Shown here: positions 2,324-22,150 of the stretch, one piece after another
How the letters are laid out: every line of letters starts with the position of its first letter
Numbering within the stretch: position 1 is the stretch's first letter
Virus record (IMG/VR): IMGVR_UViG_3300009183_000374
Location: 1 to 23,441 of that record
Strand: one strand, 5' to 3'
Length of the DNA: 23,441 nt
Source: a virus
Made by a program: the position numbers and the translations under genes
The notes under the pieces: model-generated
The model's database searches: none
Seen by the model: only the letters and a program-made list of their open reading frames with translations
What the model was told of the DNA's origin: nothing

Positions 2324-2830
2324 TTAAATAAATAACTTAAATATATAATTAATAATTTTAAATCTATATTTATAAATAATATAAAATAATATAATTAATA
2401 ATATATAATAAAAATATATAACTAAACTTTCTTTTTTATCTATTTTTTTTTCTTTTAATACTTTTGAAGTAGAAACAACTTGCTTACTATGTTTTATTTG
2501 TTGTTTTAAAGCGTTTTGTGACACTTTCTTTTGATTTGTATGTAAACTATTGTCTTTTGTTTTTTTGTGTCTTATTTTAACGTTTTTATAAGTTTTACCA
2601 TTTACAACTATTTCTTTTGTGTTATCTATTGGTTCAATTATAATTTCATCTTCAGTTTTATCTATTTTAGAATTGTTGTTTATTTCAGTATTTTCATTTG
2701 TTTTTATTTCTGTTTTTACATCAACAACTGAAACACTATCTTTCTTTTCTTCTAAATTTGTTTTACTAACTTTTCTTGAACCACAAGATATAAATAATAA
2801 ACTAACTAAAATATAAATCAGCTTCTTCAT
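2324..2830 (-). CDS. Putative unimolecular spanin (lipoprotein with C-terminal membrane helix)
   Basis: The 168-residue product starts with a lipoprotein signal peptide, MKKLIYILVSLLFISCGS, with a lipobox-type cysteine at C16. A long hydrophilic Lys/Glu/Asn-rich region follows. The C-terminus has one strong hydrophobic segment (about residues 135-153) followed by a basic stretch KYRFK. An outer-membrane lipid anchor plus an inner-membrane C-terminal helix in one chain is the architecture of u-spanins such as phage T1 gp11, which join the two membranes in the last lysis step. It overlaps the lysozyme gene by 29 bases, completing a lysis cassette. The membrane-helix codons merge into the A/T-only DNA downstream. 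The alternative is an unrelated lipoprotein; the topology and position favour the spanin. Confidence 0.7.
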   Translation of the reverse strand: MKKLIYILVSLLFISCGSRKVSKTNLEEKKDSVSVVDVKTEIKTNENTEINNNSKIDKTEDEIIIEPIDNTKEIVVNGKTYKNVKIRHKKTKDNSLHTNQKKVSQNALKQQIKHSKQVVSTSKVLKEKKIDKKESLVIYFYYILLIILFYIIYKYRFKIINYIFKLFI

Positions 2831-11977: not shown

Positions 11978-12024
11978 TCTTTTTTTATTTAAAAATTAAT
12001 ACTATTTATATTTGTTATAAATTG

Positions 12025-12231
12025 TTATCCGTTTTGTCTAACAATAGTTCTTACTCCATCTACAACTGTTACTGTTGATGTACCTTGTGCAACTGTTGAA
12101 CCAATACCTTGATTTATTAATTCACCTTTGCAACATTCATTTGAATATGTGCTATCATCACATAAACAACCTCTTTTTCCATCTTTTGGACTTGTGTATT
12201 TGTTTTTTCCCATTTTAAATATGTTAAACAT
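12025..12231 (-). CDS. Small Cys-rich head-region protein
   Basis: The product is 68 residues from ATG 12231, or 62 if the second ATG (12213, MGKNKYTSPKDGKRGCLCDD) is used. The second start looks better: it is preceded by an A-rich leader and begins directly with the motif region, whereas the first overlaps the protease stop. CLCDDSTYSNECCKGE contains four cysteines, spaced like a small zinc or disulfide knuckle, and the C-terminus (GSTVAQGTSTVTVVDGVRTI) is strand-like. Similar short proteins with 'C.C.D.TYS..CC' occur near capsid genes of Bacteroidetes phages, but I know no function. A minor capsid or decoration role is a guess from position. Confidence 0.6.
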   Translation of the reverse strand: MFNIFKMGKNKYTSPKDGKRGCLCDDSTYSNECCKGELINQGIGSTVAQGTSTVTVVDGVRTIVRQNG

Positions 12232-12811
12232 TAATTAATATTTGTTTTATCTTTTCAATCAATTCTAAATCTTTACTTTCTTGTAAATTTAATTCTGCTT
12301 TTTCACTAAAGTATCCTTCTATGCTATAACCTTGATATAAGCCACTTTTAACATCTGCCCATACTTCATCATTGTCTATTCTTTGAACTACAACCCAAGC
12401 ACCCTCAACTGCATTTAAATTGTAAATTGCAGACTTATCTTTTTTAACATCTTCAACTATCCAACTTTCTATTGTGTAAACACCTTCAGTTTTCTTTTCG
12501 TGTTCTAATGTTGAATTATGAATTTTAAGTTTCTTTAAATAAAGTTCTGATGCTTTTCTAACTGTATCTTTTGAGAAACGAATGTTATATTCATAATCAC
12601 CATTACGTCTGTAAATATCTTTTTCTGGTATTAAAGCTAAACCTATAACTATTCTTTTATCTTCATCAATAGTTTTTAATTCTACTTTGTGTTCATTTAG
12701 TGCAACCCAATTTTCTTCAATAGCTGGAAATTTAACTAAACTAATTGCATCAATCCCATCTTGAATATTTTCTTCGTCTATATCTAAATAAATAGTTTCT
12801 AACTTTTTCAT
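12224..12811 (-). CDS. Prohead protease, XkdF-like
   Basis: The 195-residue protein resembles the XkdF/S78-type capsid maturation proteases of Bacteroidetes phages. After a short N-terminus (LVKFPAIEENWVAL) comes the core strand RIVIGLALIPEKDIYRRNGD, followed by the helix FSKDTVRKASELYLKKL. Next are H104 in TLEHEKKT and S116 in VYTIESWIVED, a His-Ser arrangement as in S78 proteases. The typical C-terminal VKSGLYQGYSIEGYFSEKAE closes the domain. It is the first head gene after the tape measure and lies upstream of the scaffold-like and capsid genes it would process. Catalytic residues are assigned by pattern only. Confidence 0.75.
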   Translation of the reverse strand: MKKLETIYLDIDEENIQDGIDAISLVKFPAIEENWVALNEHKVELKTIDEDKRIVIGLALIPEKDIYRRNGDYEYNIRFSKDTVRKASELYLKKLKIHNSTLEHEKKTEGVYTIESWIVEDVKKDKSAIYNLNAVEGAWVVVQRIDNDEVWADVKSGLYQGYSIEGYFSEKAELNLQESKDLELIEKIKQILINV

Positions 12812-12906: not shown

Positions 12907-14817
12907 TTATCCTAAACTTGCATTAGTTACTATGTTTCTATTTAAACCTTGTGCAGTTGTTACATCATTGGCTACAACATATGCTTGTATTGGTGCTTGT
13001 GCTGATTTTCCTGCCATTGTTTCTGCTAATTGATTAACACCACTATTTCCAACTACGTTAAATTGTGGAGCAGCACCACCACCACCACCAGCACCACCAC
13101 CCATATCTGGTTTACTTGAAGAACCACCACCACCTAAAGCACTTAATGCTTTTGCAGTAGCTGCTATATTTGCAGCAATACCAATACCAGCGTTAATTCT
13201 ATTTAAAGTGAATTTAGTAGCTTTATATGCAATACCAGCTGGTCCCATTGTGGCAGCAACAAGACCATCAGCAGCATCAGCAGCAACAGTATTAGTAACA
13301 ATTTTAGCAATACCAACAGCACTTTCAACTAACAATAATCCCTTTTGAATTGCTTTGTTTTTTTCAAATAAACCTTTTAATAAACTAATACCACCTTCCA
13401 TAGCAGCAAACGATGCATCTTGAATAGCTTTCTTACCTTCAGCAACTGCTTTTTCTTGTTCAAGAATTACTTTATCAGTTTCTGCTTTATTAGTTATTAT
13501 TGCATTGTTTATTTCTTGTGATTTTGTTTTGTATTCATTTTCTGCATCTATTCTTGCTTGTGTGCCAAATGCAGCACCATCTATTTTAGATTGTAACCTT
13601 GCAAGTTCAATAGCTTTTTCTTCTTCTAATACTGCCCTTAATTTTTCTAATCTTAATAAATCATCTTTTTCTAATTCAGCATTAAATTTCTTTTGTTCAA
13701 TTGATAGGTTAGTTAAATTTTCAAGTTCTGATTGTTGTAATGCAGTTTTCTCTTTTGTTAATGCTATGTTATTTGCTATTTGTTCACTTCGTAATCCTTC
13801 AACCTGTGCAAGTACACCTTCTTTGTTTGCTAAAGCATTTGTTAAAGCTACTTGGTTTTCAATACTTTTATTCATTTCATAAGTATTTCTTGCAGCAGCA
13901 ATTTGCATATCTGCTTGACCAATCATAGCTTTTTGTTGTTTATCTAAAACATCTTTTAAATCATTATTTGCTTTTATTCTGTCATCAATAGAAATTAAAT
14001 CATTGTCTCTTATTTGTCTTAATTTTTCTGCTTGTCTGTCATATTGTTCTACTAACCTTGCTTGATTTGCTTCTGCTAACTTTGCTGTGTTTTGTAATTG
14101 AACATTTGCCTTTGCTTGTTCATAAGCAGCTTTTACAGATATTTTACTAACACCATCTATTGTTCCTTCAACTACTGCACCTACTTCATTTATAGCAGCA
14201 CCTATATTATTTACAACTTTTTTACCAGCGTCTAATGCATCTTTACCAACTTCAACAATATTATCTTTTGTAGTTGAAATTCTTTTATTTAATTTATCTA
14301 TTGTTTTTGTATCACCATCACCGAAGAAACTTTCTTCCCAAGCAAGTTTAGCTTCATCAATAGCTAAAGATATTGCATAGAAACCTAATTTTAAAGGTGT
14401 TAAACTAATTGTAATTAAACCACTTATAGTATTTGTTAATCCTTTAAAACCACCACTTGAATTATTTACTTTTTCAATTACCGAAATAACAACATCAACA
14501 ACTTTTGTGAAAACATTTACAACAGTTCCCATACCTGTAGCAACAGCATCAGCAACCTTTTGATTGCTCATAAATACTTCTTTTAAAGTACCCATAGCAC
14601 TAATCACAAGACCAATACCCATTGCTTTAATAGCTAAACCTACACCTTTGAAACCATCAGCTAAAGTCTTTGTGCTTTTTTCTGATTCTTTAGTATTTTT
14701 ACCAACTTCTTTTACTTCATCAGTTGTTTTTTCTAAACTTTTATTTAAAGATTTTACTTCTTTAGTTACATCATCAATGTTACTATTTATCTTTAAATTT
14801 ATTTCTTTGTTTTCCAT
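12907..14817 (-). CDS. Tail tape measure protein
   Basis: This 636-residue protein should set tail length and later leave the tube during DNA ejection. The N-terminal 60 residues are a charged coiled coil (KSLNKSLEKTTDEVKEVGKN). A Gly/Ala-rich hydrophobic segment follows (GFKGVGLAIKAMGIGLVISA), then further hydrophobic helices, and a long charged coiled coil across about residues 230-460. A second hydrophobic region (KGLLLVESAVGIAKIV) precedes Gly runs around residues 560-585. This mix of coiled coil, membrane-like helices and Gly-rich end is typical of tape measures in Bacteroidetes phages. It is short for the class, implying a relatively short tail if the usual length scaling holds. It overlaps the 49-residue gene by 19 bases. 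Confidence 0.82.
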   Translation of the reverse strand: MENKEINLKINSNIDDVTKEVKSLNKSLEKTTDEVKEVGKNTKESEKSTKTLADGFKGVGLAIKAMGIGLVISAMGTLKEVFMSNQKVADAVATGMGTVVNVFTKVVDVVISVIEKVNNSSGGFKGLTNTISGLITISLTPLKLGFYAISLAIDEAKLAWEESFFGDGDTKTIDKLNKRISTTKDNIVEVGKDALDAGKKVVNNIGAAINEVGAVVEGTIDGVSKISVKAAYEQAKANVQLQNTAKLAEANQARLVEQYDRQAEKLRQIRDNDLISIDDRIKANNDLKDVLDKQQKAMIGQADMQIAAARNTYEMNKSIENQVALTNALANKEGVLAQVEGLRSEQIANNIALTKEKTALQQSELENLTNLSIEQKKFNAELEKDDLLRLEKLRAVLEEEKAIELARLQSKIDGAAFGTQARIDAENEYKTKSQEINNAIITNKAETDKVILEQEKAVAEGKKAIQDASFAAMEGGISLLKGLFEKNKAIQKGLLLVESAVGIAKIVTNTVAADAADGLVAATMGPAGIAYKATKFTLNRINAGIGIAANIAATAKALSALGGGGSSSKPDMGGGAGGGGGAAPQFNVVGNSGVNQLAETMAGKSAQAPIQAYVVANDVTTAQGLNRNIVTNASLG

Positions 14818-18394: not shown

Positions 18395-18955
18395 TTATTT
18401 ATTTGTTATTGTGTAATCTATTAATGTTTCTATATCGTCTCCAAACGCTTTTATTAAATCTGTATCTATGTATTTCTTATATCCATCTTCAAATGGTTTA
18501 GTAAAAAATAAAGAAGGTTTAATTCCCCTTGCCCATACATTTTTAGCTATAATATATCCTATTGATTTATAATTGCCTTTTGCAAATTTACCTTTTGCAT
18601 CACGCAATCTAATGTTTCTAAACTTTGCCCATTGTTCAAATGGTGCTGATGGTATTCTTCTTTTAAATTTAAATCTACTGTTTGGTGCTTGTTGTCCTTT
18701 TATCTTTGCGTTCTTTGATACTTGTGAAGGGTCTGCACCTTTAACACCTTCATCTTGATAAAAGCCATAATCAGGCATTTCAAAGCCTAATAAGAAATAA
18801 TTATTCTCAAATAGTATTTCACCTTTGATTTGATTATAAAGTTGTTTAGAAACGTTTTTATTGCCTTTAGATAAATTACTTCTTGCTTGTTGAATAACAT
18901 ATTTTTTATATGCTTCTAAAACTTCTTTAGTAGATGTTAAATTATTAGCATTCAT
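18395..18955 (-). CDS. Tail completion / HK97 gp10-like protein
   Basis: The 186-residue protein has a helical N-terminus (STKEVLEAYKKYVIQQARSN), then EMPDYGFYQDEGVKGADPSQ, a basic middle (RFKFKRRIPSAPFEQWAKFR) and a C-terminus with WARGIKPSLFFTKPFEDGYK and LIKAFGDDIETLIDYTI. The 'YG.Y.deGvkG' element and the 'rGikpS.FftkPFe' element are typical of HK97 gp10-like/neck and tail-completion proteins of Bacteroidetes phages. It overlaps the preceding tail gene by 11 bases. Attachment of tail to head is inferred; exact placement in the virion is uncertain. Confidence 0.62.
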   Translation of the reverse strand: MNANNLTSTKEVLEAYKKYVIQQARSNLSKGNKNVSKQLYNQIKGEILFENNYFLLGFEMPDYGFYQDEGVKGADPSQVSKNAKIKGQQAPNSRFKFKRRIPSAPFEQWAKFRNIRLRDAKGKFAKGNYKSIGYIIAKNVWARGIKPSLFFTKPFEDGYKKYIDTDLIKAFGDDIETLIDYTITNK

Positions 18956-19412
18956 TTTCGCAACTTGTCATTTCATTACTAACCATAACATCAAATGTAA
19001 CTGTCCATCCAGCTATTTTATTTTCAAATCTATCTACAAATGGTTCACAATTTGGTGTGCCTGATAACTGATATAAATCATCAAATAAACTTCCCCTTCT
19101 TAATACTTCTAATAATCTATTAATAACCATTAGTTGTGTATGTAAAACATCTTGTTCATTATCATTTGTTAAAAATTGGTCTGTTTGTTCAGTCTTACTA
19201 AAGTCTACAACATCCATACATAGAACTGATATATTAAACAACCAAGTGTTGCCATTATATGTTGCATTGTTTACTATTATATGTGATAAAGGGAATATAG
19301 TTTGTTTGTTTAAATCAATTTCAAATATATCACCTGAAGAAACTGTATTAACAAATATATCTTTATATAGTTGGTCTTTAATTGCTGTTGTAACTTGGTA
19401 AAATCCTCTCAT
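18945..19412 (-). CDS. Tail terminator/completion candidate
   Basis: The 155-residue product begins MRGFYQVTTAIKDQLYKDIF and has FPLSHIIVNNATYNGNTWLF, then the helix TQLMVINRLLEVLRRGSLFD and the C-terminal strand KIAGWTVTFDVMVSNEM. An N-terminal 'i...L..d..vn.v..gd' helix followed by beta strands and a late 'f...iaGW...f.v.v' strand resembles tail terminator and minor tail proteins. The C-terminus has two close cysteines (CENEC). Its ATG at 19412 shares TAATG with the stop of the -1 frame extension of the chaperone, which suggests coupling to the frameshift product. Function is inferred. Confidence 0.55.
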   Translation of the reverse strand: MRGFYQVTTAIKDQLYKDIFVNTVSSGDIFEIDLNKQTIFPLSHIIVNNATYNGNTWLFNISVLCMDVVDFSKTEQTDQFLTNDNEQDVLHTQLMVINRLLEVLRRGSLFDDLYQLSGTPNCEPFVDRFENKIAGWTVTFDVMVSNEMTSCENEC

Positions 19413-19660
19413 TATCTTTTTATTAATTCTGTTTCTATTTGGTTCTTTTCTTTTTCAAATGTTAAAAATGTTAATGCAACTGATAATCGAAGTTTGGAAA
19501 CATCTTCAAATCTTCTAACATCTCCTTGAGACAAAGCATAGAATGATGAATACCAACCCCATTTACTTCCAAATTGTGATTGTTTACTATATTCTGAAAC
19601 TCCTTGTTGTTCTCCAAATAATGTATCGTAGACTTCAACAATTCGTTGCCTAAATTGTAA
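19412..19660 (-). CDS. -1 frameshift extension of the tail assembly chaperone (GT-like)
   Basis: Read in the -1 frame from the T run, this DNA encodes 82 residues: LQFRQRIVEVYDTLFGEQQG, then KWGWYSSFYALSQGDVRRFE, DVSKLRLSVALTFLTFEKEK and a basic end. It contains no ATG, and a TGA closes the frame about 30 bases upstream of the T run, so it can only be reached by frameshifting. The 'L..GD...fe.V..L.....L..L.f.K....E' pattern is that of the C-terminal extension of tail chaperones in Bacteroidetes phages, analogous to the T part of lambda gpGT. The stop is TAATG with the next gene. The fused protein would be 163 zero-frame residues plus 82, or 245 residues. Confidence 0.82.
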   Translation of the reverse strand, partial: LQFRQRIVEVYDTLFGEQQGVSEYSKQSQFGSKWGWYSSFYALSQGDVRRFEDVSKLRLSVALTFLTFEKEKNQIETELIKR

Positions 19661-20148
19661 AAAAAAACCACTGCACCTAATGCTACATCAACTGGCATAA
19701 ACTTCATAGCATCACAATAAGTATAGCTGCCATTATATTCTTCTATTTGATATTTATCTTTTAACTTCTTTGTTATTGGTCTATATAATACTGCCATTGC
19801 ATTGTGCATCATATCCCAATTACTTATGTACTTATCCAAATCAGTATATTCACCTAATGTTATTTCATCAAGGTTAGTTATAAAACCAAATTCAGTATTG
19901 CCTAATTTAAACGTTCTTTTCAAATCATATTTTTGATTGAATAGATTTGATAAATTAGTTGTTATTTCATTAACATCTTTAAAACTTATTTTAGCAGCAT
20001 TCTTTAAATCTATACCACAAAATATTTCTACCATTTTATGTTGAAGAAATTCACCATCAGGATTATCTTTAGCTATTGATAAAAACTTTTGATATTGTTC
20101 TAATGTTATTTCTGATAAACTTGTTGGTATGGTAATTTGTAACTTCAT
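19471..20148 (-). CDS. Tail assembly chaperone, zero-frame product (G-like)
   Basis: This 225-residue protein is the short form of the tail assembly chaperone, which coats the tape measure during tail assembly. It begins MKLQITIPTSLSEITLEQYQ (a 'p.s..eitl.qy.kfl' start common to this group). Further motifs are FITNLDEITLGEYTDLDKYI, ILYRP-like AVLYRPITKKLKDKY, and FMPVDVALGAVVFFYNLGNE at the slippery site. After the slip position it continues 62 residues in the zero frame, with LLKSTIHYLENNKEF resembling the usual C-terminus of the short form. It is followed by two tail-completion candidates, not directly by the tape measure, which is unusual. The start follows the shared A/T leader and a terminator ends the preceding gene. 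Confidence 0.8.
   Translation of the reverse strand: MKLQITIPTSLSEITLEQYQKFLSIAKDNPDGEFLQHKMVEIFCGIDLKNAAKISFKDVNEITTNLSNLFNQKYDLKRTFKLGNTEFGFITNLDEITLGEYTDLDKYISNWDMMHNAMAVLYRPITKKLKDKYQIEEYNGSYTYCDAMKFMPVDVALGAVVFFYNLGNELLKSTIHYLENNKEFQNIVNNHNLEVNGVGIHHSMLCLKEMLEDLKMFPNFDYQLH
19659..19667 (-). promoter_or_regulatory. Slippery site for -1 ribosomal frameshifting
   Basis: Nine consecutive T on the minus strand are read in the zero frame as G GTT TTT TTT TAC, giving a T TTT TTT heptamer that fits the X XXY YYZ rule. Immediately downstream ACAATT (19653-19658) can pair with AATTGT (19638-19643) as a small 6-bp hairpin. A weaker 4-bp alternative lies beside it. Transcriptional slippage on the same run is also possible. 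Confidence 0.8.
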
Positions 20149-20983: not shown

Positions 20984-22150
20984 TTAGTATATAAAGTAAT
21001 TACCTTTATGTGGATTTTCTAATTGACTTGTCATTGCATATCGCATAGCATCTATTGCGTGGTTATATGCATCTATTGGCCTATTCATTTTAATTCCTGT
21101 CTTATCTGTTTGCCAAATGTAGTTCCTTAATTCATTTATTAAGTTTTTGCTTCTTGATGTAACATAAACTTTGTTTTGATTAATTAAATTAAGACCAAAT
21201 AAGATACTATCTTTTCCTTTTGTAACTGGTAACACATTGTGACCATAACTGTTTAATTCAGCTATTGATTTTGGTTCTGCACTATCAGCGTAAACAATTT
21301 CGTTTACATTATTTGCTTTTAATAGATTTGATATTTCGCTATTCAATAATCCCTTCTTATAAATTACTTCATCAAATATATAAGCATCATTATATTTGTA
21401 CATTGTAACTAAACTTGTTGGGTCATTACTATAACCAAAATCCATTCCGTAACATAATATTCTTGCATCTTGTGGTAAATCTATTTCTTGCCAATCTGGA
21501 ATGCATACACCTTCTAAACTACCTGTTTGACCTAACCCATAAACTTGCCACCAGTTTGACCAATATGTAGATGTTAATGCTTTTACTTTTGCTGCTTCTA
21601 TTTCTTGAACTATTGTTTCTGATAATGCTTCATTGTCTAAATAAGTCAATGTAATAAAATCAACATCTGATTGTGTTAGTATTTCTTTATCAACCCAAAA
21701 TGCTGAAGTAGGATTATAGTCTAACCAAATATCACCACTTGTTCTAATTGCTAATTGATAGTAACTTTCAAAATCTATATTGTTGCACTCGTTTACATAT
21801 AATATATTTCTTCTTGCACCTCTTAATTTATCTGGCTGGTCTACACTAAAAAATTCAATATAACTTCCGTTTGCAAATGTGTACTTTAAAGTAGACTTAT
21901 TAAACTGACTATCATTATACCTACCTAATGCCATTATAATCTTTAAGAAGTCTTTTAAAGCACCTCTTCTTAAATGTGGTATGCTTTCAGATACTACACT
22001 AATTTCTAAATTAGGTTCTTTAATTGCTTTATCAATTAGCAAAGGTAGAATTCCAAAAGTCTTACCTGCACTCGTGCCTCCTCTAATAACTTTAATACGT
22101 TTCTTTAAACGCAATAACTTTTTAATTGCAGTAGTAAGTATAAACTCCAT
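20984..22150 (-). CDS. terL: Terminase large subunit
   Basis: The 388-residue protein is the packaging motor and nuclease. The ATPase half has Walker A GGTSAGKT (residues 24-31) and a Walker B strand NILYVNEC with Glu121. The nuclease half has the three expected acidic positions: D237 in CYGMDFGYSNDPTS, D289 in IVYADSAEP and D367 in NHAIDAMRYAM. The layout and size match the PBSX/Terminase_3 group. It is on the short side but complete, with both domains intact. The small subunit is encoded 11 bases upstream. The two small unknown genes that follow are separated from it by an A/T-rich inverted repeat. Confidence 0.95.
   Translation of the reverse strand: MEFILTTAIKKLLRLKKRIKVIRGGTSAGKTFGILPLLIDKAIKEPNLEISVVSESIPHLRRGALKDFLKIIMALGRYNDSQFNKSTLKYTFANGSYIEFFSVDQPDKLRGARRNILYVNECNNIDFESYYQLAIRTSGDIWLDYNPTSAFWVDKEILTQSDVDFITLTYLDNEALSETIVQEIEAAKVKALTSTYWSNWWQVYGLGQTGSLEGVCIPDWQEIDLPQDARILCYGMDFGYSNDPTSLVTMYKYNDAYIFDEVIYKKGLLNSEISNLLKANNVNEIVYADSAEPKSIAELNSYGHNVLPVTKGKDSILFGLNLINQNKVYVTSRSKNLINELRNYIWQTDKTGIKMNRPIDAYNHAIDAMRYAMTSQLENPHKGNYFIY

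Follow-up and report, generated by a model that had tools for sequence, protein, structure and literature searches.

The window (the whole stretch of 23,441 nucleotides of viral DNA that was analysed) contains a gene that appears to make two proteins, which have a 163-residue N-terminal domain in common and carry different tails. This explanation as a whole, including the parts that it gives to RNA polymerase and to a chaperone function, is held with modest confidence. The two products diverge at a run of nine T on the coding strand (T9), and comparison of the related genes indicates that it is probably RNA polymerase that slips at this run and not the ribosome, i.e., that programmed transcriptional slippage takes place. 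Slippage of RNA polymerase on T9 would result in a fraction of transcripts with ten U (U10), and ordinary translation of these transcripts would give the -1 fusion of 245 residues with its conserved -1 domain. Transcripts with eight U (U8) would lead to an early stop in the clade of the window gene, and the ratio of the products would be set by slippage. In a wider sense, the balance tips slightly towards a Bacteroidota phage clade, together with chromosomal elements derived from it, that sets the ratio of its chaperone-like products by polymerase slippage on an invariant T9, with the site retained in a dispersed gene set resembling a gene transfer agent.

Known frame changes in tail chaperone genes are explained by ribosomal frameshifting, and slippage by the polymerase rather than the ribosome would be new for such phage genes. 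A description of transcriptional slippage in tail-chaperone-like phage genes was not found in the literature searched. If this explanation is true, phages attain the same two-product outcome at another stage of gene expression, it is RNA polymerase on which the ratio of the products would depend, and annotation software that only searches for ribosomal heptamers would assign the wrong mechanism. The family is phylum-wide and its T9 is held against a background in which such runs are avoided.

Gene layout and dual coding

The features of the gene and its surroundings are listed in Table 1. A preliminary description of this DNA had proposed a nine-T run with a T_TTT_TTT heptamer on the coding strand, a -1 frame that is open for 82 codons without an ATG and is closed by a stop just upstream of the run, a stop that overlaps the start of the next gene as TAATG, and products of 225 (short) and 245 (fused) residues. 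All of these points are borne out by the sequence and by the coordinates of the open reading frames. The run counts exactly nine T (19667-19659) and contains a single heptamer in the phase of the 0 frame; on the coding strand, residues 160 to 166 read GTG GTT TTT TTT TAC AAT TTA, followed by GGC. The stop that closes the -1 frame lies 20 nt 5' of the run, and the length of the fused form follows from the 163 residues of the common domain and the 82 codons of the -1 frame, which carry an F-x-x-KWGWY-x-S motif. What had been missed is that the 0 frame goes on for 61 codons beyond the run. The difference between the products thus lies mainly in the tails, and some 60 codons serve both reading frames.

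Table 1. Positions of the gene, its parts and its neighbours in the window.
Feature	Position	Strand	Basis or remark
0-frame ORF, short form	19471..20148	-	225 aa/codons, ATG start; AlphaFold2 mean pLDDT 82; PHROG 32199 (no function annotated)
N-terminal domain common to both predicted products	19660..20148	-	163 residues; kept in all relatives
T9 run (coding strand), putative slippage site	19659..19667	-	codons 161-164; at least nine T in all 249 + 23 distinct relatives
T_TTT_TTT heptamer within T9, phased with the 0 frame	19660..19666	-	read from sequence
-1 frame extension, KWGWY-motif domain	19415..19660	-	82 codons, no ATG; 78-94 codons in 244/244 complete relatives
Dual-coding overlap of 0-frame tail and -1 frame	19474..19658	-	codon-position and randomisation tests
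-1 frame stop, TAATG overlap with start of downstream gene	19412..19414	-	sequence
Next gene, 155 aa, PHROG 30964 (no function annotated)	18945..19412	-	same neighbour in isolate prophages
Terminase large subunit, PBSX type, upstream neighbour module	20984..22150	-	NCBIfam TIGR01547
Tape-measure candidate, 636 aa, five genes downstream	12907..14817	-	PHROG 32985 match (no function annotated); length, coiled-coil/hydrophobic make-up

In most relatives, the 0 frame is likewise open for about 60 codons past the run, which makes dual coding a common trait of the family. Among 45 close relatives, 106 of the 160 third positions of the 0 frame are variable before the run, against 21 of 62 in the overlap (Fisher P 2e-5); for the third positions of the -1 frame, the change from 10/19 to 20/62 variable positions is not significant (P 0.17). 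For most representatives, the openness of the 0-frame tail exceeds that obtained by synonymous randomisation with genome codon usage (P 0 to 0.05); the excess is less clear when the gene's own codons are shuffled (P 0.005 to 0.37), and the tail residues are moderately more similar than expected (mean z 2.3). Pure chance as the origin of the tail is disfavoured by these tests of openness and residue similarity, albeit not cleanly. The tail has a median length of 61 codons, with just 6-39 codons in six sequences and 23-40 codons in a marine clade, one contig-truncated case aside. Since it comprises merely 6-40 codons in some clades, the tail is not essential everywhere. We read the constraint on the 0-frame tail as real but secondary, the -1 domain being better conserved.

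Elsewhere in the window, another run of nine bases (A9 when read on the coding strand) is found at 2443-2451 within a gene of 168 aa (2324-2830, minus strand). Such runs are otherwise rare in the coding sequence of related phages.

Conservation of the run and the mechanism of the frame change

When viral contigs were scanned with each half of the gene separately, the same loci were returned, and the second half was always in the -1 frame. In this way, 249 distinct relatives with identities down to about 20-25% were found, as well as another 23 from the marine clade. All of the relatives found have kept the N-terminal domain, a run of at least nine T and, where the sequence is complete, the extension of 78-94 codons. 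The preliminary description had pointed to conservation of the T run and of the -1 frame as the way to check its proposal, and both are conserved throughout. The carriers include isolate genomes (L229, L231) and isolate prophages of Galbibacter pacificus and Flagellimonas onchidii, along with a contig of 3.9 Mb (L238) and phage P12024L, an isolate from Nonlabens. Two contigs binned as Epsilonproteobacteria and Pseudooceanicola MAGs (L233, L235) also carry clear relatives of the gene and are probably misbinned phage contigs.

A trivial origin of the offset, in which a sequencing or assembly error or gene decay splits one continuous gene of 245 codons, has a negligible probability. Homopolymers are error-prone, and one relative (L353, G872:C6) has ten T and reads continuously, but some 270 distinct sequences from many assemblies have the same offset, as do isolate genomes, the 3.9-Mb contig and phage P12024L, and synonymous randomisation predicts a shorter open 0-frame tail than the one observed. 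L353 is the sole relative with a continuous frame, and its sister copy in the same genome (L351, G872:C4) has T9 and the -1 arrangement, a difference of one T; the T10 of L353 is either a natural variant or a homopolymer error. The presence of T9 and the -1 offset in isolate prophages and in phage P12024L excludes a sequencing error, and the doubt on this point that the preliminary description had raised is thereby removed. Chance openness of the -1 frame is also ruled out, as the arrangement recurs in every relative with this one in-frame exception.

The run can be written as n5 + TTT TTT + n3, in which n5 and n3 are the numbers of flanking T's before and after the two TTT codons. In the 249 sequences, type (2,1) occurs 190 times, (1,2) 45 times, (2,2) eight times, (3,1) three times, (3,0) twice and (1,3) once; the odd phases of two loci (L125, L292) probably result from a frame that is broken upstream. 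Throughout the 249 and the 23 marine sequences, the run counts nine or ten T, never seven or eight, and occurs in three codon phases. The sum of n5 and n3 is never below three, though a heptamer needs only an n5 of 1 and an n3 of 0. In a maximum-likelihood phylogeny of 95 representatives, the run types change 12 times without the run ever dropping below nine. The (1,2) label needs six changes, four of which are forced by well-supported branches, and at each (1,2) change a T is lost on one side and a T is gained on the other. This is also visible in the codons: where the upstream codon provides one T (Ala, Ser, Gly, Asn or Tyr), the downstream codon is TTR in 45/45 T9 cases, and where it provides two (Val, Leu or Ile), the downstream codon of T9 runs encodes Tyr or Trp, and Cys in one case. 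For runs of the (2,1) type, replacing the eighth T by C would be silent in both frames and would leave a U_UUU_UUC heptamer. Such a C is present in none of the 53 representatives with measured codon usage, while about 22% of the local Phe codons are TTC (naive P ~3e-7, a value that is only indicative, as the sequences are related and non-independent). The base 3' of the run varies freely between A and G (TTA 37, TTG 17). Taken across the relatives, these patterns demonstrate that selection holds the run at nine T or more.

In many bacteria, avoidance of A and T runs begins to show at a length of nine (Baranov et al. 2005, PMC1088944), and depletion of long coding runs is a published mark of genomes whose RNA polymerase slips at nine (PMC1088944). 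Avoidance of such runs elsewhere, as expected around a slippage site, is clear for A runs and in chromosomes. Relative to synonymous shuffles, coding A9 was seen three times in the phage loci against 41 expected, and in the coding sequence of Bacteroidota chromosomes neither runs of nine or more T (about 4.4 expected) nor runs of ten or more A (about 11 expected) were seen. For coding T9 in the phage loci, three were seen against 4.7 expected, which are small counts without clear depletion.

The preliminary description had ascribed the frame change to a programmed -1 frameshift at T_TTT_TTT. The conserved -1 frame change stands, whereas the role of the ribosomal heptamer is doubtful, with at least nine T kept in any phase. 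In classical programmed -1 ribosomal frameshifting, pairs of tRNA-Phe would slip on U_UUU_UUU and the extra T's would arise from amino-acid constraints, an account that we regard as somewhat unlikely for this gene. A correctly phased heptamer is indeed present in every relative, in all three codon phases, slippage by the ribosome is the rule for G/GT-type genes (PMC5009743), and Phe-Phe followed by an aromatic residue or Leu in both frames accounts for some of the flanking T's. Furthermore, ribosomes may slip less well on U_UUU_UUC, in which case C at position 8 would be selected against too, and the avoidance of long runs could stem from replication slippage instead of transcription. These points are opposed by a run that is never reduced to seven or eight T, by flanks that covary so that the total stays at nine or more, by the absence of the doubly synonymous C, and by the lack of any other heptamer among relatives that have diverged to about 20-25% identity. 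Nor was a stimulatory structure, an element that is common though not obligatory at ribosomal -1 sites, clearly seen: in the 95 representatives, no RNA structure was clearly beyond shuffled controls, with mean z values of -0.4 (downstream 60 nt), 0.1 (downstream 100 nt) and 0.2 (upstream 45 nt), in a model that leaves pseudoknots and SD pairing outside. A terminator-like slippage hairpin upstream of the run was also looked for and not found. Slippage by the polymerase is ranked above slippage by the ribosome because the run stays at nine or ten T in three phases, its flanks change in a coordinated way, C is absent, no clear structure is seen and long runs are avoided. Reinitiation, by which the -1 domain would be translated as a separate small protein, is very improbable. 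The -1 frame of phage P12024L has been annotated as its own gene (gp41) from an internal ATG, but the -1 frame of the window has no ATG, and conservation of the -1 frame begins right at the run with an LxFRxR motif, far upstream of the ATG in P12024L.

Protein identity and copies in Bacteroidota chromosomes

In sequence libraries, the N-terminal/0-frame half of the gene corresponds to PHROG 32199 and the -1 half to PHROG 38404, both without a function. Informative matches for the gene products were not obtained with Pfam and NCBIfam profiles, the PDB gave no solved-structure match for the AlphaFold2 model of the short form, and sequence comparison with lambda G and T revealed no similarity. 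A BFVD search with the short-form model returned numerous phage proteins that lack characterisation, along with weak matches to two proteins annotated as tail assembly chaperones (E 0.29 and 0.42). The -1 domain alone was modelled by AlphaFold2 at a low-confidence pLDDT of 65, and its BFVD matches are therefore weak. BFVD entries such as A0A516L611 match both halves of the gene and may be continuous-frame relatives.

By analogy with known systems, the gene quite likely works like a tail assembly chaperone. Many short copies would coat the tape-measure protein, as is the case for lambda gpG/gpGT, and a minority of long copies would recruit another tail component. The preliminary description had already named the gene a tail assembly chaperone. 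This assignment has indirect support from two genomes with otherwise dispersed virion genes, in which a tape-measure-like gene is its direct neighbour, but no profile, sequence or solved-structure match was obtained, and the neighbour of the gene in the window is the terminase. The gene has the terminase on one side and neck-like genes on the other, with the tape-measure candidate five genes away, in an order that is kept in isolate prophages; the order major tail protein, chaperone, tape measure is not found in the window. The gene could therefore code for another virion-assembly or structural protein, with a real frame change and independently of the slippage mechanism. This is unlikely, although it agrees with the lack of homology to known chaperones, the lack of a PDB fold match and the position directly after the terminase instead of before the tape measure. 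Among tailed phages, a two-product -1 architecture with a common N-terminal domain is above all a trait of tail chaperones, and tape-measure-like genes adjoin the gene in some genomes with dispersed virion genes: among 18 dispersed loci in Bacteroidota, such a gene lies immediately upstream in two (L360, L379) and within about 3 kb in three (L366, L368, L375). Because gene order and homology both came out negative, the chaperone-like gene is not filed as a lambda-family homologue.

In one Bacteroidota family, the gene is present in 28 of 101 genomes, with T9 in all but one of the copies analysed. Homologues of the terminase large subunit (TerL) and the portal were found in 16 of the 16 genomes of this family that were tested, mostly far from the gene and among host genes. 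In the dispersed set (loci L360, L361 and L365-L379; genomes G749, G787-G816 and G871), homologues of terminase, portal, tape measure, the T9 gene, neck/tail genes and protease are scattered singly or in small groups among host genes. On the 5.2-Mb contig C1 of genome G805, TerL (4,539,011) is about 435-460 kb away from the portal (4,985,912) and from both copies of the T9 gene (4,973,791 and 5,001,076); on C1 of G816, the portal is at 2,795,659, the T9 gene at 2,930,773 and TerL at 2,979,189. In chromosomal copies (L324-L352), a strong hairpin fold (mean z -2.4; 48% below -2) directly follows the -1 stop, at 260-320 nt downstream of the run, which suggests a dedicated terminator of a stand-alone gene. 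Gene transfer agents look like dispersed, intact sets of virion genes. The dispersed virion genes of these Bacteroidota are a candidate for a domesticated gene transfer agent; a report of a gene transfer agent in Bacteroidota was not found in the literature searched.

Comparison with known systems

Frameshifts in tail assembly chaperone genes of dsDNA phages, including lambda gpG/gpGT, have been reviewed (PMC5009743). Like gpG/gpGT, the gene described here combines a common N-terminal domain with a second product that has a C-terminal domain from the -1 frame, and it belongs to the virion module of a tailed phage and has a slippery site at the junction. The lambda-type X_XXY_YYZ heptamer is present at this junction as T_TTT_TTT, always inside at least nine T, and the anatomy and conservation of the gene fit the lambda-type scheme of two products from one start, the longer via a -1 change, as predicted from sequence. 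Unlike gpG/gpGT, the gene has no sequence similarity to G or T, follows the terminase at five genes from the tape measure, has a long 0-frame tail with products of similar size, and has an invariant run of nine or more T as its slippery site. Work on the lambda-type chaperone frameshift includes that of Levin (1993) and Xu (2004).

A homologous counterpart is found in the Nonlabens phages P12024L/S, in which gp40 and gp41 correspond to PHROG 32199 and PHROG 38404, respectively. These phages have a homologous N-terminal domain and -1 domain, T9, the -1 relation and the position after the terminase, with the differences that the halves are annotated as two unrelated hypothetical proteins and that the 0-frame tail is short (24 codons). 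In P12024L (L149), gp40 and gp41 are the two halves of one gene at 12001-12695. PHROG 32199 and 38404 are halves of one gene and should be joined, which corrects the annotation of two 'unknown' families.

Transcriptional slippage at runs of nine A or nine T has been described for Thermus dnaX, genes of IS elements and type III genes of Shigella (PMC1088944, PMC5009743). The gene of the window resembles these slippage genes in having a conserved coding run of nine A/T of a length that is otherwise avoided. As at such slippage sites, a conserved A/T run of about nine or more is present and its length is conserved rather than its codon phase, and as in the bacterial genes, a phase-dependent ribosomal signal would be unnecessary.
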